DNA of 64,000 nt, taken from the NCBI RefSeq assembly GCF_902170565.1, contig NZ_CABHXX010000091.1:1-64000 (forward strand), written 5' to 3'. Shown piece by piece: positions 12,490-44,507 of the stretch. A program made the translations under genes and the position numbers. The first letter of the stretch is position 1; every line of letters starts with the position of its first letter. Below the pieces are notes generated by a model. That model was not told the origin of the DNA. It worked only from the letters and a program-made list of their open reading frames with translations, and ran no database searches. This DNA is from Yersinia thracica (GTDB lineage: Bacteria > Pseudomonadota > Gammaproteobacteria > Enterobacterales > Enterobacteriaceae).

Positions 12490-12502
12490 GATGGCTCCCG
12501 CC

Positions 12503-12892
12503 TTACGGCTGTTGCGCTGAAATGGCGGTGAGCAGATAGCCCTGTTCAGTCTGGCGGAAGCTGAATGCGACTTGCGTGCCGACCGGGAGCGGGGCGGCAA
12601 CCCGATTATTCGGCAGGTCGAATGTCATGGTCATCGGCGGCCAGTTTAGCGCCGGAATGGCGCTGTGGGCGATGGAAACGCTGTGGGTATTCCAGGTTTT
12701 TATTTGCCCGCGAGAATGGTAGCTATTGGCGTCTGTGGCAGTGGTTTCAGCCATCATAGCCCCATGATTATGGGACATCGGCAGGTTGTCGGCCATCGAC
12801 GGAGTGGTGGCAAACAGCGGCGCAGAGAAAAGAATAACCGCAAAAAATAATGCACTAATAGTGGCGGATACAGCATTAAATAAGGAACTCAT
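12503..12892 (-). CDS. cusF: CusF-like periplasmic copper/silver chaperone
   Basis: A protein of 129 residues from the ATG at 12892, which has a GGAG site eight bases upstream; the open frame extends nine codons further without one. Residues 1-28 form a signal peptide (ATISALFFAVILFSAPLFA). The mature N-terminus holds a His/Met stretch (MSHNHGAMM). The CusF core follows with the ligands His, Trp, Met and Met in AHSAIPALNWPPMTMTF. CusF binds Cu(I) and Ag(I) in the periplasm and hands them to CusB. The same domain is also fused to the end of CusB here, so this operon has two copies. Confidence 0.92.
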   Translation of the reverse strand: MSSLFNAVSATISALFFAVILFSAPLFATTPSMADNLPMSHNHGAMMAETTATDANSYHSRGQIKTWNTHSVSIAHSAIPALNWPPMTMTFDLPNNRVAAPLPVGTQVAFSFRQTEQGYLLTAISAQQP

Positions 12893-12969
12893 GGAATAAC
12901 TCCAAAATAGAATTAGCACAACACACCGCGGAAAAGCGGCCTGAAAAATGTGGTTAACTCGGTCTGGAT

Positions 12970-13413
12970 CTATTCTCTAAATCGGCAGAAAACAATTTCG
13001 GTGGGTGGCCCGACAATGGGCGGCATATGCCAGTCGAGGCGATGAACACCGGGAGCTTGTTGGACATCCGCCAGCACTAACTCAGTGTGAGTTGGCAATG
13101 CTGCCAACACCAGCATCCCGCTGTCAGACTGAACTGAATCGGGGAGACAGTGTTTTTCACACAGGGAATTTTGCGCCGGGCCATGGGACATTTCCATCGC
13201 CGACAACATTTGTTGCATCGGGTCTGATTGCAAATGCCCTTGATGCTGGCTAAAGACCGGCGAGTTGGCAGGGGCGATATCGCACTGATGACCGGCTATC
13301 GCCAGTTGGGTATTCAGGAAAAACCAGCAGGTCACCAGCAGCATACCGCACAGGCGCTTTTTACAGGCGCGCGTTCGGTGCATAAGCTGTGATATTCCCT
13401 TAAATGCTGGCAT
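12970..13413 (-). CDS. Secreted His/Met/Cys-containing protein at head of copper operon
   Basis: A protein of 147 residues with a basic N-terminus and a hydrophobic signal (about 22-41, CGMLLVTCWFFLNTQLAIAG). The mature part is rich in His, Met and Cys (GHQCD, QHQGH, MQQMLSAMEMSHG, CEKHC) and ends with a Trp/His region. Similar small proteins (DUF2946- or CopL-like) occur at the head of copper resistance operons in Proteobacteria. I do not assign a family with certainty. Its position about 80 bases before cusF on the same strand and its metal-ligand content suggest a periplasmic copper-binding role. Confidence 0.65.
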   Translation of the reverse strand: MPAFKGISQLMHRTRACKKRLCGMLLVTCWFFLNTQLAIAGHQCDIAPANSPVFSQHQGHLQSDPMQQMLSAMEMSHGPAQNSLCEKHCLPDSVQSDSGMLVLAALPTHTELVLADVQQAPGVHRLDWHMPPIVGPPTEIVFCRFRE

Positions 13414-13691: not shown

Positions 13692-15905
13692 TTACCAGGA
13701 ATAACTGACGGTTGCGGTAGCGACACGGCCACTGCCATAGAAACAGGCCGCCATTTGTGCGCAACTGGCAACATATTCTTTGTTGAATAGGTTGTTGACG
13801 TTAACCTGCAAACTGGTGCCTTTCATGGCGGGCAGTGCTTGCCCCAGTTCATAGCGCATCATCCAGTCATATAGCGTCACCGCCGGAACTTTAAAGCTGT
13901 TTTTCCCATCACCCCAACTGGTGCCGATATAGCGCACGCCGACGCCGGTGGACAAGCCGTCCACCACACCTTTATCAAAGCTATACATTCCCCATAATGA
14001 GGCCGAATGATTGGGGGTCCGTGACGGCATTTTGCCTAATTCAGCGGCGTTCTTGGTTTCACGCACTTTGCCTTTTGTGTAGGTATAAGCGGCGATCAAG
14101 TTGATATTATCGTTAATCTCGCTGTTTAATTGTGTTTCGATTCCCTGAGATTGGACTTCACCAATGGGAACACTGTAGGCCAGCACTGAGTCGTATTGGC
14201 TGATATTTTTCTGACGTAAATCATACAGTGCGGTGGTCAGTAGGGTGCTACTGCCCGGAGGCTGATATTTAACGCCTAATTCGACCTGACGTGCTGTTAC
14301 GGGGTCTAGTGCGCCCGAACCAGGAGCGCCTTTGGCAGTGCTAGGTTCAAATGAGGTGCTGTAGCTGACATAGGGCGAGATACCAGAATCAAAGGCATAC
14401 AACACACCGCCACGACCGGTAAATGCTTTATCGTCTTGCTGGTCTTGCGTGACGCTTTTACGGTTCATGGTTTTTAACTGCGACCAGTCATAGCGCCCTG
14501 ACAGCAGGAAATTCCACTTATCTAATTCAATTTGATCTTGTAAATAAATCCCGACCTGATCAAGTTTGGTCAAATCACTGCTATTGAGCGACAGGTCACT
14601 GTCTTTAATATTCAGGCCATAAGCCGGTGATACCCAATCTAAATTGTAGGCTGGCAGCACTTTACCCATATAGAACCGGCTATCAATACGGGTGCGTTTA
14701 TAATCTAACCCGGTCAGCACCGTGTGATTTAACTGTCCCGTCCAGAAATCGGCTTGCAACTGGTTGTCGACTGCAAACTCGGCTGTTACCTGGCGTTCGA
14801 TTTGCGGGCGGCGGGTCATTGTGCGGTTATCTGCCAGTAAATCCATAAAGACCAAATATTTGTAATCTTGCTTGTTGTAGCTGTAACGCAGATTTTGGCG
14901 GAATTTAAAAGTGTCATTGATGTAATGCTCAAGGGCATATCCGACCGAGGTTTGCTCGCGTTCAGATTGATCAAATGACGGGTCACTGACGTTAAAATCG
15001 TAAGGTATTTTGCCGTAGGGGGTACCAAACACCGTGCCAATTGCCGGTAGGAAGTTACGCGAGCCAGCTTTGGGTTCTTTCTGATAGCTGGTCAGCAAGG
15101 TAAAAGTGGTGTCTTCGTTCGGGATAAAGGTCAATGCCGGGGCAATAGCAAAACGCTCCTGCTTATAGGTATTAACCGCATCATCCTGTGTTCTGCCAAT
15201 CCCATTAAGGCGATAGAGAACTTTACCCTCATCATCCAACACTCCGCCAAAATCAAAGGCAGCTTCTGCCAGGCTATTATTACCTGCCCCGACCTGCACT
15301 TTATGAATACTTTCGGCTGTCGGGCGTTTGCTGACCATATTGATCAGGCCGCCTGGGTTGACCTGGCCATACAGCACCGAGGCTGGGCCACGGACCACTT
15401 CAACGCGCTCCAGCATCCACGGATCAATTTGTCCGCCGCGCCGTGCGCCACCCAGTGAGTTGTAGCTTAATCCATCGAGAAAACGCGGCGCGTAGCCGAA
15501 ACCACGAATGATAACTTCATCATTCATGTTGGAACCACCGCGATATTCCGGCACCACACCGGCGGTATAACGCAATGCTTGTGCCACGGAAGTTGCACCT
15601 TGCTCCTGCATTTGCTGGCGGGTAATCACGGAAATGGATTGTGGAGTGCGGATCAGTGGGGTATCAGTTTTGGTGCCGGTTGAACTATTTTTAGCAACAA
15701 AACCATCATCTTGTTGCCCGCTACCTGCTTTGGCAACCACCACTAATTTATCTTCTTTTGTCGCTGTGGCCTCTTTCGCCGTGGTCGCCGCGAAAGCTTG
15801 TAGAGCCGGTATTAATATAAGTGCAGAGGTTAATAAGGTTTTTGATGCGTAGCTTGCCCGGAATAGCAATTTCCCTGGCATCTTCTTGCCTGAAATATCA
15901 AACAT
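13692..15905 (-). CDS. TonB-dependent catecholate siderophore receptor (chrysobactin/ferrichrome receptor type)
   Basis: A protein of 737 residues in the outer membrane. A signal peptide (about 15-40) is followed by a plug domain (TPQSISVITRQQMQEQG, VEVVRGPASVLYGQVNPGG) and a 22-strand barrel ending in the aromatic SYSW. The plug and barrel resemble the FhuE/FcuA/Fct group rather than FepA. Fct, the chrysobactin receptor, and FvtA, the vanchrobactin receptor, belong to the same broad group. That fits the dimodular NRPS. It is divergent from the esterase gene and shares with it a region carrying a Fur-box-like site, so it should be iron-repressed. It is the natural uptake gate for the ferric form of the siderophore made here. 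Confidence 0.9.
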   Translation of the reverse strand: MFDISGKKMPGKLLFRASYASKTLLTSALILIPALQAFAATTAKEATATKEDKLVVVAKAGSGQQDDGFVAKNSSTGTKTDTPLIRTPQSISVITRQQMQEQGATSVAQALRYTAGVVPEYRGGSNMNDEVIIRGFGYAPRFLDGLSYNSLGGARRGGQIDPWMLERVEVVRGPASVLYGQVNPGGLINMVSKRPTAESIHKVQVGAGNNSLAEAAFDFGGVLDDEGKVLYRLNGIGRTQDDAVNTYKQERFAIAPALTFIPNEDTTFTLLTSYQKEPKAGSRNFLPAIGTVFGTPYGKIPYDFNVSDPSFDQSEREQTSVGYALEHYINDTFKFRQNLRYSYNKQDYKYLVFMDLLADNRTMTRRPQIERQVTAEFAVDNQLQADFWTGQLNHTVLTGLDYKRTRIDSRFYMGKVLPAYNLDWVSPAYGLNIKDSDLSLNSSDLTKLDQVGIYLQDQIELDKWNFLLSGRYDWSQLKTMNRKSVTQDQQDDKAFTGRGGVLYAFDSGISPYVSYSTSFEPSTAKGAPGSGALDPVTARQVELGVKYQPPGSSTLLTTALYDLRQKNISQYDSVLAYSVPIGEVQSQGIETQLNSEINDNINLIAAYTYTKGKVRETKNAAELGKMPSRTPNHSASLWGMYSFDKGVVDGLSTGVGVRYIGTSWGDGKNSFKVPAVTLYDWMMRYELGQALPAMKGTSLQVNVNNLFNKEYVASCAQMAACFYGSGRVATATVSYSW

Positions 15906-16206: not shown

Positions 16207-17556
16207 GTGGTGAATGAAGAGACTTGGGCAATGAAATCAAAAGGATTGAGTGTGAGCACGACAAATGAACATCTTGATAGCCAGAGTTTGTTAGCCGACC
16301 CTCTGGCTGGCAGTGAGTCATGGTGGCAGCAGATTGCACTGCGGGGAACACCGCTGGTGGAGCCAGTCACCGCGGGCAAAGTGAAGCTGACATTCCTCTG
16401 GCGGGAGCCGCCCGCCAAGGCGGGGAGCGCTGTTTATAGCCGTGTCTATATTGATGTTAACGGCGTGACTGATCACCACAGTCCCACTCCTGAAACTCTA
16501 CAGCGCTTGGGCCAGAGCAATGTTTGGTATTGGCAGGCTGAAGTGGAATCTGATTTCCGCGGCAGCTACAGTTTTATTCCTGTGGTTGAAGAACAGGGTT
16601 TGAATTTACCTGAGGGGACACCACAAGAGCGCCGTCAGGCGCAGCGCAATTGGTGGATCTCACTGATGGATTTAGCTGAAAACGATCCGTTCAATCCTAC
16701 CGCTCCCCATTACAGCTATCGCGGGAAACCACTTTCGGCGGTGCATTTAGCCGATGCTTTGCCCCAGACGGCCTGGCAACCCATTGATGCGGGCCAAAAA
16801 CTCCCAATGGACCCAAAACGGCTGCAACTGATTAGCTGGAATAGCCAGTGGCTCGGTAATAGCCGCAATGTGTGGATTTACCACACACTCGGTGCCGAAG
16901 ATAAAGCTGAGCGGCCGCTGGCTATCTTACTCGATGGTCAATATTGGGCGCATGGACAATCGATTTTTGGTGTGCTGGACAGAGAAACTGACGCCGGGCA
17001 CCTACCTGCCAGTGTGTATGTTTTGATCGACATTATCGACCAACCTCATCGCGCTGTGGAATTACCCTGCAATCAGGATTTCTGGCAAGCGCTGCAAACG
17101 GAGTTACTGCCACAAGTGGCCTTGCTGCAACCTTTCACTGACCAAGCCTCTCGCACCCTGGTCGCCGGACAGAGTTTTGGCGGGCTAGCTTCGCTCTATG
17201 CCGGATTACATTGGCCGCAGCGTTTTGGTTGTGTGCTGAGTCAGTCAGGTTCCTTTTGGTGGCCAGATGTCGACAATTTCACCGCACTGACTGCCGGAAC
17301 TGCCGAGCGGCAGGGCTGGCTGACCGAGCAGGTTTATCAAGGTGTGGGCGCTGGCCATCCATTGGATATTTTTATGGAGGCGGGCCGCCGTGAAGATGTG
17401 ATTTATCAAGTCAATGAGGCCATGAGTGAAGCACTGCGGCAGGCTGGGCATCGGCTGCATTACCGAGTGTATTCAGGGGGCCACGATTCCTTGTGCTGGC
17501 GTGGCGGCTTGATTGATGGATTGCACTGTTTATTCGGTTCCTCAGATTCAAAATAA
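16207..17556 (+). CDS. fes: Fes/IroD-type siderophore esterase
   Basis: A protein of up to 449 residues. Order: N-terminal Fes domain (about 25-170) and a C-terminal alpha/beta-hydrolase (esterase D-like) domain. The nucleophile elbow GQSFGG carries Ser323, and the catalytic His is probably His426 in YSGGHDSL. Fes enzymes cut the serine ester bonds of ferric catecholate siderophores in the cytosol and so release iron; this implies a product with seryl ester links. The frame opens with GTG codons at 16207; an ATG at 16231 is an alternative start and gives 441 residues. It is the first gene of the operon fes-mbtH-NRPS. Confidence 0.92.
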   Translation: MVNEETWAMKSKGLSVSTTNEHLDSQSLLADPLAGSESWWQQIALRGTPLVEPVTAGKVKLTFLWREPPAKAGSAVYSRVYIDVNGVTDHHSPTPETLQRLGQSNVWYWQAEVESDFRGSYSFIPVVEEQGLNLPEGTPQERRQAQRNWWISLMDLAENDPFNPTAPHYSYRGKPLSAVHLADALPQTAWQPIDAGQKLPMDPKRLQLISWNSQWLGNSRNVWIYHTLGAEDKAERPLAILLDGQYWAHGQSIFGVLDRETDAGHLPASVYVLIDIIDQPHRAVELPCNQDFWQALQTELLPQVALLQPFTDQASRTLVAGQSFGGLASLYAGLHWPQRFGCVLSQSGSFWWPDVDNFTALTAGTAERQGWLTEQVYQGVGAGHPLDIFMEAGRREDVIYQVNEAMSEALRQAGHRLHYRVYSGGHDSLCWRGGLIDGLHCLFGSSDSK

Positions 17557-17560: not shown

Positions 17561-17590
17561 ATTTACGCCATGAACATTTACGCCATGAGC
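17561..17590 (+). repeat. 15-bp tandem duplication spanning the mbtH start codon
   Basis: The unit ATTTACGCCATGAAC is followed directly by ATTTACGCCATGAGC, 14 of 15 identical. Each copy carries an in-frame ATG, so mbtH has two possible starts five codons apart (17570 and 17585). The only ribosome site (AAGGA at 17555-17559) is spaced for the first. Confidence 0.85.
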
Positions 17591-17821
17591 AATGAAACAG
17601 AAACACCCACCAACCCGTTTGATAACCAAGACTTGCCTTTTTTTGTGCTGATCAATGAGCAACAGCAATACAGTTTGTGGCCCCAAATTACGGCGATCCC
17701 GGCAGGATGGGAGATTGTTCATGGCCCGCAGAGCCGGGCAGATTGTGTGAAATATCTTGAGGTTAATTGGGTCGACATGCGCCCAGCCAGTTTGATTCGG
17801 GCAGAAGCTGGCCTGCAATAA
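17570..17821 (+). CDS. ybdZ: MbtH-like protein, NRPS adenylation-domain partner
   Basis: A protein of 83 residues from the ATG at 17570. MbtH proteins bind adenylation domains and are needed for their folding or activity. The family motif is clear: NEQQQYSLWP, IPAGWEIVHGP and YLEVNWVDMRP hold the three conserved tryptophans. The ribosome site AAGGA overlaps the fes stop. A 15-base duplication gives a second ATG at 17585. It lies between fes and the NRPS, as ybdZ does in the E. coli enterobactin operon, and should serve one or both adenylation domains of the giant protein downstream. Confidence 0.95.
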   Translation: MNIYAMSNETETPTNPFDNQDLPFFVLINEQQQYSLWPQITAIPAGWEIVHGPQSRADCVKYLEVNWVDMRPASLIRAEAGLQ

Positions 17822-17910
17822 CGCGGGCCGTGGGCTAAAGGAATTATCGGATTATTGCGGCTCCACCGGCTGCAATAAATCCTGTGTTGCCAAAAAAAGG
17901 AATACCCATC

Positions 17911-20900
17911 GTGTCAGAGGATTCAATCTCCCTTGTTGCTACTGTCGAGCTGCCCTTGGTGGCGGCACAGCCCGGAATCTGGTTTGCTGATCAGTTAAGT
18001 CAGCAAAAGAACATGTTTACCGTGGCCCATTATATTGAACTGGCGGGGCCGCTGGAGAGGGAACTCTTTAGCCGTGCCGTTAGCCAAGGGCTGGCGGAGT
18101 CCGATACTCTCCATGCGCATTTTTTTGATGACGACGACGGCCCGATGCAGCGCATTCCCATACAGCGCCATGCGGCTGACATGCCCAAGCTGGAGTGGTT
18201 GGATTTCAGCACTCGCGCCGATGGGCGACAGGCTGCACTGACATTGATGTGGGAGGATACTGAGGCTCCGATACAGTTAGATGGCGAGCAGCCACTGTAT
18301 CGACACTGGGTTATTGGTGTTCCTGATGAAAATGGCAAGCCGCTATGGCTTTGGTATCAGCGTTATCATCATTTATTGCTTGATGGCTTCAGTTTCACCG
18401 CAATTACCCGCCGTATCGCCGATATTTACACTGCATTATTGCAAGGGAAATCTATTGGGGAATCCCCTTTTACCCCATTTAGCGAGGTGGTCAGTGAATA
18501 TTTGGCGTATGCGGGGTCAGAAACCGAGCTGCGCGATAAGCAATTTTGGCAACAACATACTGCGGATTTACCCGCCGCACTCTCCCTTTCCCCCCTGAAT
18601 TCGCCCGCCCGGGCAGAGCCAACGGATAATCGCGTATTGCGGCAGCGCGTTAATATTGATTCTGACTCGTTTGGCCGTCTGACGGCAGGGGGCGCAGAAC
18701 AGCGCCTGAGTGCTGCCGATATGGCGATGGCGCTGTTGCTGATTTATTTCGCCCGTATAAGCGGCGAAATGCGCTTGTCGGTTGGGTGCCCGTTTATGCG
18801 CCGCATGGGATCCGCCGCCTTGACCGCCACCGGGCCGGTGGTGAATGTGTTGCCGTTGCAGATAACTTTACGGCGCGAAATGCAGATTATTGATGTGGCG
18901 CGCGCAGTGGCGAGCGAGCTGAAAACGATGCGTAAACATCAGCGCTATGAAGCGGAGCAATTACGGCGTGATTTGGGAATGGTCGGTTCCCAGCGGGCGC
19001 TATATGGCCCGATACTGAATTTTAAAATGTTCGATTTTGCCCTGAATTTGGCGGAGATAACTGGCGTTACCCACACCCTGGCCTCCGGCCCGGTCGATGA
19101 TGTCGAGTTTGACCTCTACCTTGATAACGGCCAATTGACCTTGGAAATACTGGCAAATGCGCGGCGCTATGACCACGCTTGCCTGCATCAGCATGGCGAG
19201 CGAATACAATTCTTGTTGCAGCAATTGGCGGCCCAAGCTGAAATCACGGTGGGCGACCTCATCTTGACACCAACGCAAGAGCTGCAACGCATTGATAGTT
19301 GGGCTAACGGCCCGCAATTAAGTCTGCCTGCCGGGGTGGTGTCGGTGCTGGATATTTTCCAGCAGCAAGTGAGTGCGCAACCGGATGCCATCGCGGTGAG
19401 CTGTGGCAAGCAAAGTCTGACTTATCGCCAGCTGTCTGACCGTGTGGCCCAGCTAGGGCGAGCATTGATCGCCAGAGGAATTCGGGCTGATGATGTGGTC
19501 GCGATAGGTATTCCGCGAACTGTGGATTCGCTGGTCGCCATTTTGGGGACTCTGGCCAGCGGCGCGGCTTATATGCCGCTTGATCTGGATTACCCGATGG
19601 AGCGGCTCGCCTTAATGTGCGAGGACGCCAGACCGCGCTTACTCTTGGCCCATCAATCGACTGAAAGTTTGTTATCTTCACTGGCTATCACTGGCGAGAT
19701 GGAGATAGTTTGCCTGAATGAATCGCGCTTCCAGCAGGACTGCACGGCTTTCTCTGTTCAGCCCATTACCGATACAGAACGCCGGTACCCTCTGTACGGC
19801 GACCATCTGGCTTATATGATTTATACCTCCGGATCGACTGGGCGGCCAAAAGGGGTGATGAGCACCCACGGTGGCTTAGTCAACTTGCTGGTGGCGCACC
19901 GCACGCACCTGTATGGGCCAGCGATGGCGGAATTTAAGCAGCATCATACCCGCCGGATGCGTGCGGGGCATACCGCCTCATTCTCTTTCGATTCCTCTTG
20001 GGAACCGCTGTTCTGGATGATGATGGGCTGCGAGATGGTTATTTTTGATGAAGAAATGCGCCGTGATGCTTATGCATTGGTGCAGATGATGGATCAGACG
20101 CCAATCGACACCATGGATATTACCCCGTCATTCTTTACGCAAATGATTGATAGCGGTTTACTGGAGGCCGGGCATCACCAGCCCGCCTTTATTATGATGG
20201 GCGGTGAAGCTGCAACCCCGCGTTTGTGGGAGCGGCTGAAACAGCATCCTGAACTAAACGTGGTTAACTTCTACGGCCCGTCGGAATACACCATCGATAC
20301 CCTCGGCGCGAATATCCAGCTGGCGGCGCAACCGGTGATTGGCCGCCCGGTGGCGAATACCGAAGTCTATTTGTTGGATAGCCAACTCGCCAAAGTCCCA
20401 ATAGGTGCGGTGGGGGAGTTATATATTGCCGGTAAAGGGCTGGCTCGTGGTTATCTGAACCGGCCTGATTTAACTGCGGCGCGTTTTGTGGCCAACCCTT
20501 TCCGTCACGGCGAAGTGATGTATCGCAGCGGTGACTTGATGCGCTGGACGGCAGAGGGGCAGTTAGATTTTGTCGGGCGCACTGACCATCAGATAAAAGT
20601 GCGCGGTTTCCGGGTTGAGCTGGGCGAAGTCGAGAACGCGCTAGTGGCTTTGCCGGAAGTCAGCAGTGCGGTGGTTATTGCCGAAGCGGTCGGCGCGACC
20701 CATCGGCTTATTGGCTACTGCGCGGTACCCGATGCGCAACTGCGCCAGAGTGAAGATCTCAATGCCCGGCTGATGGATCAATTGGCCGTGAGCTTGCCAG
20801 ATTATATGGTGCCCGCGATCCTGATGGTGTTGGATGAAATGCCGCTGACGGTAAACGGCAAGATTGACAGACAGGCGCTGCCCGCCCCACAACACCGACA

Positions 20901-23900
20901 ACAGCTCGCCAGTCGGGCACCACAAACCCCACAGGAAAGGCTATTGTGTGATGCCATCGCTCACTTGCTGCATTTGGGCAATATTGGTGCGGAAGATGAT
21001 TTCTTCCAACTCGGGGGCGACAGTATTTCCGCTATGGCGCTGGGGAGCACTTTGCGTCGCGCGGGTTTCCGGCTGGCTCCGCGCGAGATTTTTGCTCTGC
21101 GTACCCCGGCTAAAATGGCGCTGGCTTTACACCCGTTAATGGATTCGCCCGTAGCGGCACCCCCTGTATCCACCGCAGCCTTACCGGAAACACTGTGGCA
21201 GGCGGCTGTCGAAAAATATGGCCCAATAGCCGATATTCTGCCGGTATTGCCGCTCCAGCAAGGTTTGCTATTCCATGCTCAGTTAGGGCAAGAAGCCAAT
21301 AATTACAATGCTATCAGCCGGTTTGGCCTGCAAGGTGAGCTGGACATTGAGCGCTTGCGCGATGCATTGGAAAGCCTACTGCAACGCTACCCGCAACTGG
21401 GGGCTATTTTTGACAGTGAGTTGCACAGTGAATCATTGCAAATCCTGCCGCAGATTCAAGATAGCGCCCGCCGCTGGCCGTGGCAGCAATATGACCTGAG
21501 CGCATTGACACCGGAGCAGCAAACTGCCAAAACCCAGCAATGGGAGCGCGAAGGGCTGGCACGAGATCTGGTGAGTGAGACGGCGGGGACATTAAAACCT
21601 TTATTGATTGCCACCTTGCTCCGCTACAGCGCCGAGCGTCATTCATTGATCATCATCGCGCACCATTTGGTGGGAGATGGCTGGTCATCGGCAATTTTGC
21701 TGCATGACTTGCTGCATCTCTACGGCAACAAGCCGACATTACCGCTGCTGAGTGTCAGTTATGGTGATGTGATCCGCCGCATGACGGCGCGCGACCTGCA
21801 AGCAGACCGTTTGGCCTGGCAACAGGCTGTTCGCGGTGTCACGCCCACGATTCTCTATCCTGAAACCAATGCCGCCAGTCCGGTACACGAATGGACTATC
21901 GCGCTGGACAGCAAACTGGAAACGGCACTGACCGAGCTGCAACGGCGCGAGGGCATCACGCTCAATACCCTATTGCAAGGGGTTTGGGCCACCTTATTGG
22001 GCGTGCTCAGTGGCCGTGATGATGTGGTATTTGGCTCACCGGTTTCTGGCCGTTTTAGTGAAATCGACGGTATCGAACAGCAGGTCGGGCTGTTCAGTAA
22101 CACCCTCCCGGTGCGGGTGAAATTGCAGCCGCAATTACCACTGTTAGCACAGTTGGCCGCGTTGCAGCAGCAGCAGATCCAGTTACTGGAGCACGATGGC
22201 CTGGGCTTGGGGGAGATCCAGCGTCTGGCCGGGGCGAATACGTTATTTGATACCTTGCTGGTGGTCGAAAACTACCCAGAAAACAATCAATTGCATCAGA
22301 AATCTTTTAACGGTTTGCGGTGTAATGCACTGAATAACCGCGGTTATACCCATTACCCACTGACTTTATTGGTGCTGCCGGGCGAGAAGCTGCATCTGCA
22401 ACTGGAATACCGTGATGCGGTCGGCGATCCGCAACGATTGGCCCAGCGCTTGGTGATGTTGCTCGAATATTTGGTTTGGCAACCCGAATTACCGTTATCC
22501 GCCCTGAATTTGCTGACTGCCGATGAAAAAGCGCTGTTGGCATCCACCAATGACACCGCCATCGCCCTACCTGCGCTGACGCTATGTGATTTGCTCAACC
22601 AACAGGCGCAGCTAACACCGCAGGCTATCGCCTTATTGGATGCTGATGAAACACTGACTTATCAGCAAGTTAATCAGCGGGTTCAATCGCTGGCTACCCA
22701 TTTACGTCAACAGGGCGTGCTGCCCGGTGACCGGGTCGCTGTGGCGCTGCCGCGCTCAGTGAATCTCAGTTTGGCCTTGATGGCTATTTTGGCTGCGGGT
22801 GCTGCTTATTTGCCGCTGGATACCGGTTACCCTGATGATCGCCTGGCTTACATGATAAGTGATGCCGATCCACGCCTCCTTATTACGGTCAGCTCTTTGG
22901 CTGAGCGCTTTATCGGCCAGGCCCCGCTGCTGCTGGATCAACTGTCTATACGGGATCAACAGTCTGTGCAGGATAAAACGGCGCTGCTGCCCGCCGTCCA
23001 GATAACGCCAGACCATCCGGCTTATTTGATTTATACCTCCGGCTCCACCGGGCGGCCAAAAGGTGTGGTGGTCACCCATGGGGCTATCGTTAACCGCCTG
23101 TTATGGATGCAAAATGAGTATCCGCTGGGCGGTGATGACGTGGTATTGCAGAAAACGCCGTGCAGTTTTGATGTCTCGGTGTGGGAGTTTTTCTGGCCAA
23201 TGATAACCGGGGCCAGATTGGTCATGGCGCCGCCAGAAGCTCATCGTGACCCAGAGGTGCTGCGTAGCTTGATTGAGGATTATGGCGTCACTACCGCTCA
23301 CTTTGTGCCCTCAATGCTGGCCGCTTTTGTCAGTGCGATGCATGGGCAGCAGCAACCTTGCCAGAGTTTACGCCGGGTATTTTGCAGTGGCGAAGCATTG
23401 TCACGCGAGCTATCGGAGCTATACCAACAGATTTTTGCTGCTCCATTGCATAATTTATATGGCCCAACTGAAGCGGCGGTGGATGTCACTTATCAACCGG
23501 CCTATGGTGACGCTCTGGCGCGAGTGACCGGCAGCAGTGTGCCCATCGGCAAGCCGGTGTGGAACACCCAACTGCGTATTCTCGACAGTATGCTGCGGCA
23601 AGCCCCGGTCGGCATTGCAGGCGATCTCTACTTATGCGGCGTGCAACTGGCGCAGGGTTACTATGCCCGTCCAGACCTGACTGCCAGCCGTTTTGTTGCC
23701 GATCCTTATGATCGTGGGCAGCGGATGTACCGCACCGGTGATATCGCCCGCTGGCTGCCGGATGGCACGGTAGAATATTTGGGGCGCAGTGACGATCAAT
23801 TGAAAATTCGTGGACAACGCATTGAGTTAGGTGAGATTGAATCCGCGCTATTGGTGTTGCCTTCAGTCCAGCAGGCGGTGGTGCATGCCCGCACCCTGGC

Positions 23901-25125
23901 GGGGGCGGAAGGGGCCTTGGCCGGTGCTGATACCCGCCAGTTGGTCGGTTATATTGTGCCGGTTGCCGGGGCGGAAAATATCGATTTAGAGATTTTGCGT
24001 AGCCAGCTTAGTGAGCGCTTACCGGCGCATATGGTGCCGGTGGTTATCATCAGCCTGAGTGCTCTCCCGCTGAGTGCCAATGGCAAACTGGATCGCAAAG
24101 CATTACCGGCACCAGTGAATCAGGCGGGCAGTGGTGGGCGCACGCCACAAGCCGGTTTGGAAAGTCTGATTGCCGGATTATTTGCCCATTTATTGGGGGT
24201 TGAAAGCGTCAGTGCGGATGATGATTTCTTCGCGCTGGGCGGTCATTCTTTGTTGGCAATGCGCTTGGCGGCTGACCTGCGCCGTGAGTTGCAACAGCCG
24301 GTCGCGGTGGGGCAGGTGATGGTGGCCTCGACGGTGGCGGCATTGGCCGCAGCATTGAGTCAGCCGCCATCAGATAAACAGGCGGGTAAAGCCGGTTTCA
24401 GTGAAGTCTTGCCGCTGCGCAGTGGCAGGGGTAACCCACTATTTTGTATCCATCCGGCGTCTGGTTTTGCTTGGCAATTCAGTTTGTTACCGCGTTATTT
24501 ACCGGGTAGCTGGCCGGTGCTGGGAATTCAGTCTCCGCGCCCTCATGGGGCCATTGCCACCCGTCAGGATATGGACAGCTTATGTGACCATCATTTGGCG
24601 ACATTACGTCAGGTGCAGCCACAGGGGCCATATCACCTGATGGGATACTCATTGGGGGGCACAGTGGCGCAGGCCATGGCAGTAAAATTACAAGCACAGG
24701 GCGAGGAGGTGGCTTTCTTGGGGTTGTTGGATACCTATCCGCCGGAAACTCAGGATTGGAACGCGCCGATTGAGGCTGAGGCGCAGGAGGAAGTTGAGCG
24801 CGAGCGGGCATTGTTTATGGCGGCAGCGGGGGATGAGCAGGAAGAGAAGCGAGAAATGTTTGCGCAAATTCAGGCAAATTATGACGATTCTATCGGCTTG
24901 TTATCAGGGGCTAAAACGCCAGTTTACGAGGGTGAAACCACGTTATTTGTTGCCACCCAAACCCTACCCGCAGGTGAAACTCCCGAGGATATTTGGCGGC
25001 CATATGTGAAGCAACTGCGGACATATTATCTTGATTGTTCGCATATCACGATGATGTCGCCGGAGACATTAAAAGTGCTGGGGCCTATTTTGCAGCAAGT
25101 GTTTAGTGGGATTAGGTCATTGTAG
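17911..25125 (+). CDS. Dimodular NRPS (C-A-T-C-A-T-TE), DHB-basic residue-Ser siderophore synthetase
   Basis: A protein of 2,404 residues from the GTG at 17911, which has an AAGGA site; the frame opens nine codons earlier at GTG 17884. Domains: C1 (HHLLLDG at 153-159), A1 (YTSGSTG at 638-644), T1 (LGGDSI, Ser1038), C2 (HHLVGDG at 1251-1257), A2 (YTSGSTG at 1708-1714), T2 (LGGHSL, Ser2113), TE (GYSLGG, Ser2247; His2378). Aligned to the GrsA pocket, A2 reads DVWHFSLVDK, the EntF serine code. A1 reads DSEDMGFIDK, with acidic residues that suit a basic amino acid. E. coli EntF has one module and about 1,290 residues; this layout resembles VabF, CbsF or DhbF. C1 should take DHB from EntB, and TE should oligomerise by ester links. 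No epimerase domain is present between T1 and C2. Confidence 0.93.
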   Translation: MSEDSISLVATVELPLVAAQPGIWFADQLSQQKNMFTVAHYIELAGPLERELFSRAVSQGLAESDTLHAHFFDDDDGPMQRIPIQRHAADMPKLEWLDFSTRADGRQAALTLMWEDTEAPIQLDGEQPLYRHWVIGVPDENGKPLWLWYQRYHHLLLDGFSFTAITRRIADIYTALLQGKSIGESPFTPFSEVVSEYLAYAGSETELRDKQFWQQHTADLPAALSLSPLNSPARAEPTDNRVLRQRVNIDSDSFGRLTAGGAEQRLSAADMAMALLLIYFARISGEMRLSVGCPFMRRMGSAALTATGPVVNVLPLQITLRREMQIIDVARAVASELKTMRKHQRYEAEQLRRDLGMVGSQRALYGPILNFKMFDFALNLAEITGVTHTLASGPVDDVEFDLYLDNGQLTLEILANARRYDHACLHQHGERIQFLLQQLAAQAEITVGDLILTPTQELQRIDSWANGPQLSLPAGVVSVLDIFQQQVSAQPDAIAVSCGKQSLTYRQLSDRVAQLGRALIARGIRADDVVAIGIPRTVDSLVAILGTLASGAAYMPLDLDYPMERLALMCEDARPRLLLAHQSTESLLSSLAITGEMEIVCLNESRFQQDCTAFSVQPITDTERRYPLYGDHLAYMIYTSGSTGRPKGVMSTHGGLVNLLVAHRTHLYGPAMAEFKQHHTRRMRAGHTASFSFDSSWEPLFWMMMGCEMVIFDEEMRRDAYALVQMMDQTPIDTMDITPSFFTQMIDSGLLEAGHHQPAFIMMGGEAATPRLWERLKQHPELNVVNFYGPSEYTIDTLGANIQLAAQPVIGRPVANTEVYLLDSQLAKVPIGAVGELYIAGKGLARGYLNRPDLTAARFVANPFRHGEVMYRSGDLMRWTAEGQLDFVGRTDHQIKVRGFRVELGEVENALVALPEVSSAVVIAEAVGATHRLIGYCAVPDAQLRQSEDLNARLMDQLAVSLPDYMVPAILMVLDEMPLTVNGKIDRQALPAPQHRQQLASRAPQTPQERLLCDAIAHLLHLGNIGAEDDFFQLGGDSISAMALGSTLRRAGFRLAPREIFALRTPAKMALALHPLMDSPVAAPPVSTAALPETLWQAAVEKYGPIADILPVLPLQQGLLFHAQLGQEANNYNAISRFGLQGELDIERLRDALESLLQRYPQLGAIFDSELHSESLQILPQIQDSARRWPWQQYDLSALTPEQQTAKTQQWEREGLARDLVSETAGTLKPLLIATLLRYSAERHSLIIIAHHLVGDGWSSAILLHDLLHLYGNKPTLPLLSVSYGDVIRRMTARDLQADRLAWQQAVRGVTPTILYPETNAASPVHEWTIALDSKLETALTELQRREGITLNTLLQGVWATLLGVLSGRDDVVFGSPVSGRFSEIDGIEQQVGLFSNTLPVRVKLQPQLPLLAQLAALQQQQIQLLEHDGLGLGEIQRLAGANTLFDTLLVVENYPENNQLHQKSFNGLRCNALNNRGYTHYPLTLLVLPGEKLHLQLEYRDAVGDPQRLAQRLVMLLEYLVWQPELPLSALNLLTADEKALLASTNDTAIALPALTLCDLLNQQAQLTPQAIALLDADETLTYQQVNQRVQSLATHLRQQGVLPGDRVAVALPRSVNLSLALMAILAAGAAYLPLDTGYPDDRLAYMISDADPRLLITVSSLAERFIGQAPLLLDQLSIRDQQSVQDKTALLPAVQITPDHPAYLIYTSGSTGRPKGVVVTHGAIVNRLLWMQNEYPLGGDDVVLQKTPCSFDVSVWEFFWPMITGARLVMAPPEAHRDPEVLRSLIEDYGVTTAHFVPSMLAAFVSAMHGQQQPCQSLRRVFCSGEALSRELSELYQQIFAAPLHNLYGPTEAAVDVTYQPAYGDALARVTGSSVPIGKPVWNTQLRILDSMLRQAPVGIAGDLYLCGVQLAQGYYARPDLTASRFVADPYDRGQRMYRTGDIARWLPDGTVEYLGRSDDQLKIRGQRIELGEIESALLVLPSVQQAVVHARTLAGAEGALAGADTRQLVGYIVPVAGAENIDLEILRSQLSERLPAHMVPVVIISLSALPLSANGKLDRKALPAPVNQAGSGGRTPQAGLESLIAGLFAHLLGVESVSADDDFFALGGHSLLAMRLAADLRRELQQPVAVGQVMVASTVAALAAALSQPPSDKQAGKAGFSEVLPLRSGRGNPLFCIHPASGFAWQFSLLPRYLPGSWPVLGIQSPRPHGAIATRQDMDSLCDHHLATLRQVQPQGPYHLMGYSLGGTVAQAMAVKLQAQGEEVAFLGLLDTYPPETQDWNAPIEAEAQEEVERERALFMAAAGDEQEEKREMFAQIQANYDDSIGLLSGAKTPVYEGETTLFVATQTLPAGETPEDIWRPYVKQLRTYYLDCSHITMMSPETLKVLGPILQQVFSGIRSL

Positions 25126-25138: not shown

Positions 25139-26410
25139 TTACCCGCCGACTTCATCGGCCTTCTCCCCCTCAGCGGAAACCTCGTCCCCCATGGTCGCGC
25201 GGCGTAATGTCCCGCCACAGACGGCAATAACGCCCCCCGCCGTTGCCGCGATCATGCCAAAGGTCAAGGCGCTGAGCGCCGGGGCCATGACTCTCGCCAA
25301 CACTCCTAACCCCAATGCGCCGAATGATTCACCCGCAACAAACTGCACATTCCACAGACTGTTCACCCGCCCTAATAAGGCATCCGGGGTATGAGTTTGC
25401 ACTAAGGTATATTGCAGCAACCCGCTGATAGACCCCAGATAGCCATATAACAACAAACCGGGCAGGGCCAGATAGAAATTATTGGTCAGCCCTAATGTTC
25501 CGATAGCTAAAAAAGCGGCAATAGAACTGGACATCAGCACCATTCCAGGGCGGTGAACTTGATTGACCCAGCCACTGGTAAAAGCCCCAATTGTCGCCCC
25601 CAGTGGCACCACTGAGTACATTAAACCAATCTGCGAAGCCCCGACATGATAGGTATTCTCCGCCAGCGCGGGGAATAAAATACGGATAGCCCCAATCATG
25701 CTGACCAATGTTCCCAGCAACACCACTGAGCCTACAACTTTATGCCGCAATACAAACGAAATCCCTGTCGCCAATGCCCGTAATGGGTGTTCATGCTGGC
25801 TGGTCGTCGGTTTCATTGAGGGCAGACTCAACAGCGGCAACAGAGTTAACATCGTCCCCACCGCAGCAATCCCGTAGTTCCAACCCACTCCGCCGTAAAC
25901 TATCACCAGGCCACCCATGGCCGGGGAAATCACCGAGCCAAAACGCACGGTCAGCATGCTTAACCCGCCCGCAGCGGCCAGATTTTCTCGCCCGACCAAT
26001 GAAGGCGTTGCCGCCATCAATGCAGTCATACCGAGCGCACCAAAGAACCCATCCCAGGCTGCTAAAACATACAAAACCCATAATGAGGGTGTCACAGAGA
26101 ACGCATTGATACTTAAGCCAATAAAACCTAAACCACAGGTAAAGCGGGCGAATAAAATCAGTTTACGGCGATCAAGCCTGTCCGCTAATACGCCCCCCAG
26201 CAATAAGCCAATAAACATCCCCAGACCATCCAAGGTGACGGCCAACCCCACTTGCAAGGTTGATCCGGTCATCATTTGTATCTGCACCGGCACCGCAACC
26301 GTGAGCATCCCCAGCCCTAAAATGGAAATAAAACGAGCAAAAAATACAGCTCGAAAATTAGCATTTTCTCTTAACAGGCTGAAATCCAAAAGAATCGGTG
26401 ATTTTGCCAT
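25139..26410 (-). CDS. entS: EntS-type siderophore exporter (MFS)
   Basis: A protein of 423 residues with about twelve membrane segments, very similar to E. coli EntS along its length. Matching stretches include FRAVFFARFISILGLGMLTVAVPVQIQMM and LGRVNSLW near the C-terminus (residues about 18-47 and 345-352). EntS exports the newly made siderophore across the inner membrane. It converges on the NRPS gene with only 13 bases between stops. Its start faces fepD across a region with a strong Fur-box cluster. The C-terminal tail is slightly longer than in E. coli and acidic. Confidence 0.94.
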   Translation of the reverse strand: MAKSPILLDFSLLRENANFRAVFFARFISILGLGMLTVAVPVQIQMMTGSTLQVGLAVTLDGLGMFIGLLLGGVLADRLDRRKLILFARFTCGLGFIGLSINAFSVTPSLWVLYVLAAWDGFFGALGMTALMAATPSLVGRENLAAAGGLSMLTVRFGSVISPAMGGLVIVYGGVGWNYGIAAVGTMLTLLPLLSLPSMKPTTSQHEHPLRALATGISFVLRHKVVGSVVLLGTLVSMIGAIRILFPALAENTYHVGASQIGLMYSVVPLGATIGAFTSGWVNQVHRPGMVLMSSSIAAFLAIGTLGLTNNFYLALPGLLLYGYLGSISGLLQYTLVQTHTPDALLGRVNSLWNVQFVAGESFGALGLGVLARVMAPALSALTFGMIAATAGGVIAVCGGTLRRATMGDEVSAEGEKADEVGG

Positions 26411-26633: not shown

Positions 26634-27701
26634 ATGTCAGCGACTGATTCCCCAAACCAATCTTCACCAAAACAGCTAAAACCCAGCCCCGTTGTTGCTG
26701 AAAACGCACAATCCCGTCGGGGACTGTTGCTTTTACTCAGCATAGTTATATTGATGCTCGTGATGGTTGCCAGCCTGATGCTCGGTGCCAAAGCCATTCC
26801 TTTCTCTGTTGTCTGGCAAAGTTTGCTGGGCGAACACAGCAATGCCGACAGTGTTTTAATATTGGAATCCCGCCTACCCCGCACCTTGATTGGGGTGCTG
26901 GCCGGTGCTGCACTTGGGTTATCCGGCGCGGTGATTCAAGCATTGACCCGCAATCCTTTGGCGGACCCAGGGATTTTGGGCGTCAATGCGGGGGCCAGTT
27001 TTGCAGTGGTGCTTGGTATCACTGTTTTTGGCGTTCATGCCATGCATGGCTATATGATTGCTGCATTTATTGGCGCGATGCTCACCACATTGGTGGTGTA
27101 TTGGGTGGGAACACAGGGCAGCGGGCGGGTTGACCCCTTGCGGCTGACCCTCTCCGGCGTGGCTATCGGGGCGGTATTACTGGGGATTTCTACCGGCATA
27201 TCACTGACACACCCGCAGGTCTATGACCGCGTTCGTTTCTGGCAAGCCGGTTCGCTGGATATCCGCGATATGTCGGTGGTGATGGCGGTCGCGCCCGCCA
27301 TTCTTCTCGGCTGTGTGATTGCCTTGCTGCTGGCACGCCCCCTCAATGCTATGCATATGGGGGAAGATTTAGCCGCCGCGATTGGCGCGCGCATTGGTCA
27401 AACCCAATTTTTGGCGGTGGTCACCGTGACTTTACTCTGCGGTGCCGCTACTGCGGCTGTTGGCCCGATAGCCTTTGTCGGCCTGATGGTGCCGCATATT
27501 GCTCGCTGGATTGTCGGGCCGAATCAATGTTGGATTCTCCCATTTACCTTGGTAATGACTCCAATTTTGTTATTAGTTTCTGATATCGTCGGCCGCTTTC
27601 TGGTTCCGGGTGAATTGCGGGTTTCCATCGTAACGGCATTTATTGGCGCACCCTTATTGATCTGGTTGGTACGCCGTAATAAAAGGATGACCGCGTTATG
27701 A
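26634..27701 (+). CDS. fepD: FepD-like ferric siderophore permease
   Basis: A protein of 355 residues, an inner-membrane permease of the FecCD family with about nine or ten membrane helices. Family landmarks are present: SRLPRTLIGVLAGAALGLSG, RNPLADPGILGVNAGA and FVGLMVPHIAR. FepD pairs with FepG to form the channel that carries the ferric siderophore in from FepB. The N-terminus is about 20 residues longer than in E. coli and rich in Ser, Pro and Lys. It overlaps fepG by four bases. The promoter region carries the Fur sites. Confidence 0.93.
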   Translation: MSATDSPNQSSPKQLKPSPVVAENAQSRRGLLLLLSIVILMLVMVASLMLGAKAIPFSVVWQSLLGEHSNADSVLILESRLPRTLIGVLAGAALGLSGAVIQALTRNPLADPGILGVNAGASFAVVLGITVFGVHAMHGYMIAAFIGAMLTTLVVYWVGTQGSGRVDPLRLTLSGVAIGAVLLGISTGISLTHPQVYDRVRFWQAGSLDIRDMSVVMAVAPAILLGCVIALLLARPLNAMHMGEDLAAAIGARIGQTQFLAVVTVTLLCGAATAAVGPIAFVGLMVPHIARWIVGPNQCWILPFTLVMTPILLLVSDIVGRFLVPGELRVSIVTAFIGAPLLIWLVRRNKRMTAL

Positions 27702-28741
27702 AACCCGCCACTCCGCCCTGGCTATTGGGCCGCCCTGATGGCCCAATAAATCTGCGTATCCAACCCCGTAGCCTGATTGTTGGCAGTTTGCTGCTATTGG
27801 CCTGTTTATTGACGGGGCTGCTAGCATTAAGGGTCGGGACTTTGCCGCTCTCTTCCGGGCAAGTATTTGCGGCCTTATTCGGCCAGGCCAGCGGAACGGC
27901 AGATATTATCGTCAACCAATGGCGGTTACCCCGCGCCACGATGGCGTTGATTTTCGGTGCTGCGCTAGGTATCAGTGGCGCTATATTTCAGTCATTGGTG
28001 CGCAACCCATTAGGTAGCCCAGATATCATCGGCTTTAATGCGGGAGCTTATACCGGTGCGTTGGTGGCGATTACGCTGTTCAACGGCAACTATTTTGAGG
28101 TTGCCAGTAGCGCGCTGGGGGGCGGCTTGCTGTCTGCCCTCGCGGTGTATTTGTTGGCTTATCGGCAGGGGATTCAGGGCTTTCGGCTGATTATTGTCGG
28201 CATCGCCATTGGCGCAATGTTAACGGCATTCAATACCTGGCTGACTATCACGGCGTCATTAGAGGCCGCTATGACCGCCGCCGCGTGGGGGGCCGGTTCG
28301 CTGAATGGTCTGACGTGGGCCAAGGGCTTGCCGTCGGTGATATTTATCATTATCGCCACGGTGGTGGCGATGCTGCTGAGCCGCCGCATGCCGCTGTTGG
28401 AAATGGGCGATGACGCGGCGGGTGCGTTGGGCGTTCCGGTCGAAAAAACCCGTTTGGGCTTGATGGCCATTGGCGTCATTTTGATGGCCGCGGTCACCGC
28501 AGCGGCGGGGCCGATTTCTTTTATTGCATTAGCCGCGCCACAGATTGCAAAACGTTTGTTGGGCACCTCTTCAGTGACGTTGACCGCGTCTGCGCTGATG
28601 GGGGCATTGTTATTGATAGCCGCGGATTTGTGCGCTCAGCACCTATTTTCACCTAATCAATTGCCGGTCGGTGTGGTCACTATCAGCATCGGCGGCTTAT
28701 ATCTTATTTGGCTTTTAATCCGAGAGTCCGGACGATCATGA
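27698..28741 (+). CDS. fepG: FepG-like ferric siderophore permease
   Basis: A protein of 347 residues, the second FecCD-family permease. It shows WRLPRATMALIFGAALGISG, RNPLGSPDIIGFNAGAYTGA and ISFIALAAPQIAKRL. The order fepD-fepG-fepC is that of E. coli, but the three genes point the same way as the NRPS here instead of against it. The start overlaps the fepD stop and the end overlaps fepC, so the three products are probably made in fixed ratio. Confidence 0.93.
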   Translation: MKPATPPWLLGRPDGPINLRIQPRSLIVGSLLLLACLLTGLLALRVGTLPLSSGQVFAALFGQASGTADIIVNQWRLPRATMALIFGAALGISGAIFQSLVRNPLGSPDIIGFNAGAYTGALVAITLFNGNYFEVASSALGGGLLSALAVYLLAYRQGIQGFRLIIVGIAIGAMLTAFNTWLTITASLEAAMTAAAWGAGSLNGLTWAKGLPSVIFIIIATVVAMLLSRRMPLLEMGDDAAGALGVPVEKTRLGLMAIGVILMAAVTAAAGPISFIALAAPQIAKRLLGTSSVTLTASALMGALLLIAADLCAQHLFSPNQLPVGVVTISIGGLYLIWLLIRESGRS

Positions 28742-29550
28742 GTAATGCTAGCTCTGCCACCTTACCGATGTCGCGCTTGCAGGCCGATGTTCTGACCTTG
28801 GGTTATGACGGCAAGATTATCAGCAAGAACCTGAGTGTCGCCATTCCTGATGGTGAATTTACCGTGATTGTCGGCCCCAATGCTTGTGGCAAGTCGACAC
28901 TGTTGCGCGCCTTGAGCCGTTTACTGAAACCGCAGGCGGGTCAGGTGATTCTGGATGGTAAGAATATTGCCAGCCTTGATACCCGGCACGTGGCGCGCCA
29001 TTTGGGCTTATTACCGCAAAGCTCGCAAGCTCCGGATGGTATCAGTGTGCTGGATTTAGTGGCGCGAGGCCGCTATCCCCATCAGAAATTGTTACAGCAA
29101 TGGACACAAACCGACAGGTTGGCGGTCAGCCATGCCATGGAAGCCACAGGGGTCAGTGAACTGGCGGACAGGTCAGTGGATGCTTTATCCGGCGGGCAGC
29201 GCCAACGAGTATGGATAGCCATGGTTCTGGCGCAACAAACACCATTGTTACTGTTAGATGAGCCAACTACCTATTTAGATATCGCCCATCAAATTGATTT
29301 ACTTGAGTTATTTAGCAATCTGAATCAGGAGCATAACCATACCTTAGTGGCCGTCCTGCATGATCTTAATCATGCTTGCCGCTATGCCACTCATATTATC
29401 GCCATGCGCGATGGGCAGATAGTGGCGCAAGGTAAACCGCGCGACGTGGTCACTGCCGATTTAGTCGAGCAGGTTTTTGGTATGCCCTGCTTAATTATTG
29501 ATGACCCGGTTTCGCATACGCCGTTGGTGATACCAAAAGGGCGATTTTAG
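28738..29550 (+). CDS. fepC: FepC-like ABC transporter ATPase
   Basis: A protein of 270 residues from the ATG at 28738, which overlaps the fepG stop (ATGA); the frame is open ten codons further up inside fepG. It powers import of the ferric siderophore at the inner membrane. Walker A is GPNACGKST (46-54), the ABC signature is LSGGQRQR (150-157), and Walker B ends in Asp174-Glu175 (LLLLDEP). The switch His lies in VAVLHDLNHA. Everything needed for activity is visible. It is the last gene before a long non-coding stretch. Confidence 0.95.
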   Translation: MSNASSATLPMSRLQADVLTLGYDGKIISKNLSVAIPDGEFTVIVGPNACGKSTLLRALSRLLKPQAGQVILDGKNIASLDTRHVARHLGLLPQSSQAPDGISVLDLVARGRYPHQKLLQQWTQTDRLAVSHAMEATGVSELADRSVDALSGGQRQRVWIAMVLAQQTPLLLLDEPTTYLDIAHQIDLLELFSNLNQEHNHTLVAVLHDLNHACRYATHIIAMRDGQIVAQGKPRDVVTADLVEQVFGMPCLIIDDPVSHTPLVIPKGRF

Positions 29551-30302: not shown

Positions 30303-31334
30303 TTAAGGTTTGGTCTTAAACATCCCCTCAATCCGTGCCAATAAATGACTCGCACTGTAATAATCTAACCGGAACGTATCATAGCCCGCGGCATAAACCC
30401 GATCATGTTTAATTGCGGGGATATGAGCTAAAAAGTTATTACTTTTCAGTGCGTCAACCGCCGGTTGATCCCCGGAGAATAGCAAAATAGTCTCGCCGTT
30501 AAGGCCCTCGGCCAGCTTTTCGCCGCCCAGTTGGATGATATCTTTGCGGTGCCCCATGCTGGTGTTGCCTTTCACAGCATCAGGGACTTCCGCCAGTGTG
30601 AAACCCAATTCCTGCAACAGTTTTCCCTGGGCTGAACTCTCAGTCCACAAATTGGCAGTGCTGCCCGCCGCCTGATAGACAAACGCTGAAATAGGTTGCG
30701 GTGGCAGCGTAATATTCTGCTTTACCTCATTGAGTCGATTAGCGAATTTCTCAATAACTTGTTGCGCGTCAGCCTCATGCCCTGTAGCCGTGCCCAGCAC
30801 GATGGCTAACTCTTGCCAACTCTTGTCATCATAATTAATGACTAATGTAGGGGCGATAACGGACAGTTGCTCATACAGCTTTAGCGCCGAATCCCCGCCA
30901 GTGGCAGAAATAATAATTAAGTCCGGGTTCATTCCCGCGACAGCTTCGGCATTGGGTTCCGTCTGGTACATTGGCACCAGTTTTTTGGCCTGTGCAATAT
31001 CTGACCATTGAGTAAAGAAACCTTGATGATCAGCCACTGTGGTGTCAGGCACCGTCGCCCCACTGGCAATCACCGGGGCATTGATAGCCAGCAAAGTCCC
31101 GGTAATGGTGATACTGGTGGACACAATCCGTGTGGGTTGATGTGTGAGTGTCACCGGCCCTTTAGCTGTTTCTACTGTGCGGGCCCACGCCGCCTTGCTC
31201 TCATTGCCTGATTGCCCCGTGGTTTCTTCCGCCGGTTTACAAGCAGACAAGCAGAAAATGAGACCCACAAGGCCCAGGTTCGTCAATATTAAACGCCATT
31301 TTTTATGCTGAATGTAATTGATATAAAAGGACAT
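30303..31334 (-). CDS. fepB: FepB-like periplasmic ferric siderophore-binding protein
   Basis: A protein of 343 residues of the class III solute-binding fold. The N-terminus has a hydrophobic segment ending in LSAC (29-32), a lipobox, so the mature protein could be a lipoprotein anchored at Cys32. Landmarks of the family follow: PTRIVSTSITITGTLLAINAP, PDLIIISATGG and a C-terminal YDTFRLDYYSASHLL. FepB collects the ferric siderophore in the periplasm and delivers it to FepDG. It is transcribed away from entC; the shared upstream region carries a Fur-like site and an inverted repeat. Confidence 0.93.
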   Translation of the reverse strand: MSFYINYIQHKKWRLILTNLGLVGLIFCLSACKPAEETTGQSGNESKAAWARTVETAKGPVTLTHQPTRIVSTSITITGTLLAINAPVIASGATVPDTTVADHQGFFTQWSDIAQAKKLVPMYQTEPNAEAVAGMNPDLIIISATGGDSALKLYEQLSVIAPTLVINYDDKSWQELAIVLGTATGHEADAQQVIEKFANRLNEVKQNITLPPQPISAFVYQAAGSTANLWTESSAQGKLLQELGFTLAEVPDAVKGNTSMGHRKDIIQLGGEKLAEGLNGETILLFSGDQPAVDALKSNNFLAHIPAIKHDRVYAAGYDTFRLDYYSASHLLARIEGMFKTKP

Positions 31335-31432: not shown

Positions 31433-31464
31433 TTAGTCGTAATTTACCACGCCATAAAGGGAAT

Positions 31465-31483: not shown

Positions 31484-31513
31484 ATTACTATTTATATTGT
31501 AATGGAGGTCTTT

Positions 31514-34389: not shown

Positions 34390-34399
34390 GGATTTTATG

Positions 34400-44227: not shown

Positions 44228-44233
44228 TGCCTG

Positions 44234-44506: not shown

Positions 44507-44507
44507 G

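Follow-up and report, generated by a model that had tools for sequence, protein, structure and literature searches.

A FreF-type synthetase cluster in Yersinia thracica with frederiksenibactin as its predicted product and without an epimerization domain

The synthetase and its neighbours

The window analysed here is a stretch of 64,000 nucleotides from Yersinia thracica (contig NZ_CABHXX010000091.1). It contains a nonribosomal peptide synthetase (NRPS) among genes of enterobactin type. The NRPS frame occupies positions 17884-25125 of the plus strand and has 2413 codons counted from its first GTG. The original prediction had placed a condensation-adenylation-carrier (C-A-T) module and a C-A-T-TE module, TE being a thioesterase, in this one frame with a start at 17911. 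The layout is borne out by the Pfam stretches, two Condensation, two AMP-binding, two PP-binding and one Thioesterase, with E values (1.4e-130, 5.8e-170, 4.4e-26 and 6.3e-39) far below chance, and the GTG at 17911, with AAGGA just upstream, is a good candidate for the start. The features of the cluster are as follows.

13692-15905 (-): TonB-dependent siderophore receptor, FhuA/FoxA-like subfamily, candidate ferric-frederiksenibactin receptor (TIGR01783, above cut-off)
16207-17556 (+): Fes-type enterochelin esterase (NF007758, 569 bits, cut-off 222)
17585-17821 (+): MbtH-like protein (PF03621, E 3.5e-23; start chosen by eye)
17911-25125 (+): FreF-type NRPS, C-A-T-C-A-T-TE, without an epimerization (E) domain
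17947-19290 (+): C1, first condensation domain, HHLLLDG (PF00668 and motif; role as a starter accepting 2,3-dihydroxybenzoate, DHB, assigned by position)
19327-20973 (+): A1, predicted L-Lys adenylation domain (pocket DSEDMGFIDK ungapped, DSWDMGFIDK gapped)
21010-21027 (+): T1 core motif LGGDSI, the usual form in carriers that precede E
21229-22539 (+): C2, DCL type, grouping with condensation domains directly after E domains (PF00668 and trees)
22597-23664 (+): A2, serine adenylation domain, DVWHFSLVDK
24169-24357 (+): T2, LGGHSL
24436-25071 (+): thioesterase domain, GYSLGG
25139-26410 (-): EntS-type exporter (NF007792, 598 bits, cut-off 324)
26634-27701, 27698-28741 and 28708-29550 (+): FepD-, FepG- and FepC-type ABC importer genes (frames)
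30303-31334 (-): FepB-type periplasmic binding protein (NF008200, 478 bits, cut-off 205)
31463-32746, 32743-34389, 34397-35308 and 35308-36117 (+): operon of entC-entE-entB-entA type, for 2,3-dihydroxybenzoate

A Condensation-family profile search of the draft genome (4.31 Mb, 140 contigs) found no E domain. It returned two Condensation-family domains, both within this NRPS, and the same model does detect E domains in other genomes, for example in G201 (locus L052, 12392-13654 of contig C210). Two genes of the phosphopantetheinyl-transferase family, which modify carriers, lie elsewhere in the genome (frames of 159 and 250 aa). EntC, EntE and EntA score above cut-off (TIGR00543, TIGR02275 and TIGR04316), and EntB is assigned by its position together with weak hydrolase-family matches below cut-off. 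For the receptor, none of the best 25 of 28 matches reaches an equivalog cut-off. In the Yersinia loci compared it is a neighbour of the synthetase, and its counterparts beside E-containing relatives (L051-L054, L140, L142 and L143) are 45-62% identical to it.

In these Yersinia loci, some of them cut short at the flanks, the NRPS is accompanied by counterparts of the cluster genes. The entS-fepDGC block has the window's orientation in G013 and G020 and is inverted in L009, L010, L011, L013, G006 and G011; fepDGC was not seen in the stretches of the Y. massiliensis-type loci (L012 and L049/L050). Relatives of fepDGC match genes annotated as fepD, fepG and ABC ATP-binding protein in an Erwinia aphidicola plasmid locus (L142). 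The best Fur-box-like sites of four intergenic stretches gave P values of 0.03, 0.098, 0.262 and 0.664 against shuffles, and a 15/19 match to the Fur box lies at 31465, just past the listed EntC start, with two other places in the window scoring equally.

Three other gene sets were noted in the window. Flagellar-type export genes lie beside the cluster, at 40238-50029 and beyond (by Pfam FlhA, FlhB, FliR, FliP, the FliM/N C-terminal domain, a sigma-54 activator and FliF), and are perhaps a second flagellar system. At 6519-12600 there are RND efflux genes with domains of CusB and CusF type, for copper or silver efflux by their Pfam names; RND and outer-membrane parts also adjoin the receptor in L009, L010 and L011. 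A secretin with a pilus N-terminal domain (1538-2854) may belong to a pilus locus that extends beyond the window.

Adenylation pockets and the spacer residue

Alignment to GrsA (1amu) gives A2 the pocket DVWHFSLVDK, the serine code, as had been claimed. For A1 the code first put forward, DSEDMGFIDK, is the ungapped reading; if a one-residue deletion is placed before the Trp (FDSS-WEP against FDASVWE), the pocket reads DSWDMGFIDK. Nine of the ten positions are the same in both readings and are firm, while GrsA position 239 hinges on where the deletion is placed, MAFFT giving W and a HMMER alignment to LgrA, with no gap there, giving E. The count of acidic positions in A1 is therefore a matter of convention. 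Of the three that had been claimed, D278 is firm and E239 depends on the reading; D331 occurs in the serine code as well and is not diagnostic. The A1 code of the turnerbactin synthetase TnbF, DSDDGGLVDK, was obtained by its authors with NRPSpredictor2 (PMC3795760). Its acidic residue at position 239 would fit the ungapped convention, TnbF being known here from the published code alone.

Whichever reading is taken, A1 has the same ten pocket residues as Y. frederiksenii ATCC 33641 (L011), the proven frederiksenibactin strain. Over an extended signature of 31 pocket positions the window agrees with this strain at 30, with Y. nurmii at 28 and with Y. ruckeri at 16. One ten-residue code is common to nine distinct Yersinia A1 domains, the window's and those of L009, L011, L012, L021-L024 and L028; L025-L027 look like second copies of L009, L011 and L012, and their A1 codes agree. 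At GrsA position 300, next to pocket positions 299 and 301, the window alone among the nine has Met where the others have Ile. In the Y. nurmii-type domains (L010, L029 and L030) position 322 is Tyr and not Phe, and Y. ruckeri (L013 and L031) reads DAWDAGLVDK or DADDAGLVDK. In a quick tree built from 73 A domains, a single branch (SH-aLRT 93) sets the 20 A1 domains of the family, of which L011 alone has a proven substrate, off from the serine A2 domains and from 30 others; the A1 domains of L155 and L156 stand apart. A1 of the window joins this family group and does not show the clustering with neutral-residue domains that the original prediction had named as speaking against it.

The choice between Lys, Arg and Orn that the original prediction had left thus narrows to Lys, because the pocket is that of the proven frederiksenibactin strain (an argument from orthology), and the L configuration is predicted because no E domain was found in the genome. 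It is improbable that A1 activates Arg or Orn to give a ruckerbactin- or turnerbactin-like product. Such synthetases belong to the same family and have the same architecture, a cationic side chain of whatever kind would be bound by D278 and possibly E239, and the code of TnbF (L-Orn) shares six of ten positions with the ungapped window code when counted by hand, but the pocket is identical, 10/10, to that of the proven Lys strain and differs (16/31) from that of Y. ruckeri, whose A1 we take to be Arg-specific. Loci from Vibrio, Pseudoalteromonas and Pseudomonas (L014-L016 and L019) were tried as Arg references and rejected, as their frames are EntF-sized (1318-1328 aa) and have the serine-type code only.

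Carrier and condensation domains

None of the eight Yersinia proteins compared has an E domain, yet T1 reads LGGDSI in all of them. In the set used for comparison the motif GGDSI is found in all 13 carriers directly before an E domain, while 57 of the 60 carriers before a C domain do not read GGDS, and carriers with neither C nor E next read GGDS in 3 of 29 cases; the counts are not independent, many rows coming from two close relatives (G201 and G309). The eight Yersinia proteins, as the test cases, and the overlapping fragments L089o0 and L090o0 were left out of this tally. Two of the three exceptions before a C domain, IGGDSL in L102 and L105, are real, and the third is L098, whose next domain falls in the E clade.

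C2 shows a similar pattern. In a FastTree analysis of 148 C and E domains, labelled by position and not by chemistry, the eight C2 domains from Yersinia make up one clade (1.0), which groups with the five after-E C domains of the relatives (1.0). A larger clade around them (1.0) holds all nine after-E domains, four first-position domains and 39 domains that come after a GGHS carrier with no E, which are presumably partners of dual condensation/epimerization domains. As all eight Yersinia C2 domains lie with the after-E domains of relatives, C2 is nearest to the DCL kind and not to the LCL kind, though no E domain precedes it. The same mismatch was published for TnbF in 2013 by Han et al., who suggested loss of an E domain (PMC3795760). 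We did not find it stated for Yersinia synthetases in the literature searched, which included parts of PMC8480324 and PMC8949500 and was mostly other than subscription literature. New relative to the TnbF precedent is its extension to Yersinia, Azospirillum and three other Enterobacterales genomes.

One point against the predicted L-Lys product, besides the Met at GrsA position 300, is that the C2 subtype predicts a D donor; TnbF has the same mismatch, and its product has a proven L residue. A chrysobactin-type unit, DHB-D-Lys-L-Ser, with Lys epimerised by C2 or in trans, would suit the grouping of C2 with D-donor condensation domains and the T1 motif of E-partnered carriers, but we consider it very unlikely, given that the genome search found no E domain and that the proven orthologue, likewise without one, gives L-Lys (PMC8480324). 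With L-Lys as the predicted donor, an E-less C2 of DCL type offers a natural case for testing what determines the donor stereochemistry that a condensation domain accepts, which is of practical value for NRPS engineering.

Distribution of the synthetase

Twelve of the 25 Yersinia genomes searched, counting the window's own, have an orthologue that matches nearly the whole query (E <= 1e-200), and the closest two are 95% and 92% identical. Among named records, identity in the best segment is 86% for Y. alsatica and Y. frederiksenii ATCC 33641, 84% for Y. massiliensis, 70% for Y. nurmii and 64% for Y. ruckeri. An order-wide search with A1 gave 8 of 394 genomes at E <= 1e-150. In four genomes outside Yersinia the frames are 2812-2873 aa long and have the order C-A-T-E-C-A-T, which is also found in plasmid loci of Pantoea, Erwinia aphidicola and Serratia grimesii (L140-L143); a fifth, L055, has a frame of 2010 aa that reads C-A-T-E-C up to its end. 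In a class-wide search the window's A1 found its own genome only (1 of 369, at E 1e-120), and a profile of the A1 alignment found 36 of 369, in frames of 619 to 7478 aa.

E-less members with LGGDSI in T1 are present at three loci on large Azospirillum plasmids (L144-L146), as clusters of DHB-X-Ser type with the A1 pocket DS(W/L)DLGLVDK. Three other Enterobacterales genomes (G195, G188 and G118) hold E-less synthetases of DHB-X-Ser type with LGGDSI (L155), MAGDSI (L156) and LAGDSI (L157); their A1 pocket, DT(W/D)A(N/D)CIVYK, is unlike the window's Lys code, the Y. ruckeri code and the Orn code of TnbF, and they possibly make a new siderophore. At the Y. ruckeri locus L013 the A1 core (11366-13225) is 46-51% identical to the relatives compared, against 72, 79, 87 and 86% identity to Y. 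nurmii for C1, C2, A2 core and TE. On these figures A1, roughly from the C1 end to T1, looks replaced or fast-evolving, and either would fit a substrate change within Yersinia.

Probable loss of the E domain, once or more than once

Both C2 trees show two changes in the presence of E. In the first tree a single change was found in 12% of 200 bootstrap trees, and E-bearing L055 is unplaced. In the second the two changes are forced by the starred branches, a single change was found in 0% of 200 bootstrap trees, and the E-bearing rows cluster together (86/90), surrounded by E-less lineages. The AU test did not reject a single E-less side in either tree (p 0.217 and 0.35). The trees used 6 and 5, respectively, of the 13 Yersinia C2 rows; near-copies L053 and L141 were left out of both, and L145 also of the second. 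In unrooted trees from C2 to TE, made without L055, a single branch splits E-less from E-bearing rows (100/100). Long branches or an odd composition mark several rows of these trees.

Since the E-bearing rows group among E-less lineages, these sequences would fit repeated loss of E, or its early loss followed by one regain. The position of the whole family with after-E domains argues that a deeper ancestor probably had an E domain. The configuration of the spacer residue sets the chirality of the iron complex, L-Lys giving Delta and D-Lys giving Lambda (PMC8480324). We tentatively speculate, at less than even odds, that the Yersinia L-Lys siderophore may have arisen from an E-bearing line making a D-amino-acid product, E being excised, the T1 motif kept and the DCL-type C2 retuned to an L donor. 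The same may have happened separately in Azospirillum, Teredinibacter and other Enterobacterales, and excision of E would then be a recurrent natural route by which siderophore chirality and the handedness of the iron complex are flipped.

Predicted product and pathway

Frederiksenibactin, isolated from Y. frederiksenii ATCC 33641, is an iron-scavenging compound made of repeats of dihydroxybenzoate, L-lysine and L-serine, both amino acids being assigned as L by Marfey's analysis; its synthetase FreF is without an E domain, and similar clusters occur in several Yersinia genomes (PMC8480324). Our results suggest, with a probability of roughly 0.88, that frederiksenibactin is also the product of the cluster described here. 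An enterobactin synthetase with an idle A1 is hardly credible, even though several surrounding genes bear enterobactin names and the match to the EntF model NF007605 is strongest over the second module (residues 1119-2406), since that model has a cut-off of 2400 bits and scores 1996 in two stretches, the orthologues examined retain the A1 pocket in three variants, and the first-module C and T motifs are present in all eight Yersinia proteins compared. The finding of frederiksenibactin as the likely product is an ordinary one, within a known product class. The original prediction of a DHB-(basic residue)-Ser siderophore other than enterobactin was correct, as was its naming of frederiksenibactin as an L-Lys compound of Y. 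frederiksenii (PMC8480324). The product can thus be predicted by name without culture work.

We infer the order of the biosynthetic steps by homology with enterobactin and frederiksenibactin biosynthesis. EntCBA-type enzymes would make 2,3-dihydroxybenzoate, which EntE would load onto the carrier part of EntB. C1 would join it to L-Lys, activated by A1, on T1, and C2, although its kind usually follows an epimerase and accepts a D donor, would have to take the L form and pass DHB-L-Lys to L-Ser, activated by A2, on T2. The TE would oligomerise three units as seryl esters and then release them, mainly as the linear trimer. EntS would serve for export, the adjacent TonB-dependent receptor and FepBCDG for import of the iron complex, and the Fes-type esterase would cut the seryl esters.

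Comparison with known systems

The closest known system is the frederiksenibactin cluster freABCEF of Y. frederiksenii ATCC 33641, which has the same gene set, the same C-A-T-C-A-T-TE order without E, and identical ten-residue pockets in A1 and A2. Its NRPS is matched over residues 1-2413 and is 86% identical in the best segment; identities of the other proteins are 93% (receptor), 84% (Fes), 81% (MbtH), 93% (EntS), 87% (FepB), 83% (EntC), 88% (EntE) and 89% (EntB). It differs in belonging to another species, in having Ile and not Met at GrsA position 300, and in the inverted entS-fepDGC block. The ruckerbactin synthetase of Y. ruckeri (L013), which we take to be a known member with L-Arg in its product, shares the E-less architecture and a similar gene neighbourhood, but its A1 core is 49% identical to the window's and its pocket is different. 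EntF shares the second module, the TE and the accessory genes, but has one module and no spacer amino acid.

The turnerbactin synthetase TnbF of Teredinibacter turnerae is likewise an E-less two-module NRPS (2399 aa) with a serine A2 code and a C2 of DCL type that acts on an L residue; it differs in using Orn and in its A1 code (PMC3795760). In the chrysobactin-like synthetases (L051-L054 and L140-L143) C1, A1, T1 (LGGDSI), C2, A2, T2 and TE are all homologous to the window's, and the A1 pocket is one residue off (Y for F at 322) in six of eight, two in L143 and three in L054. They have an E domain between T1 and C2, the mark of the chrysobactin type, which predicts a D residue, whereas the window NRPS has none at this place. 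An E-bearing cluster in Chromobacterium violaceum gives cyclic trichrysobactin with D-Lys (PMC13251462), in line with the E domain setting the chirality.
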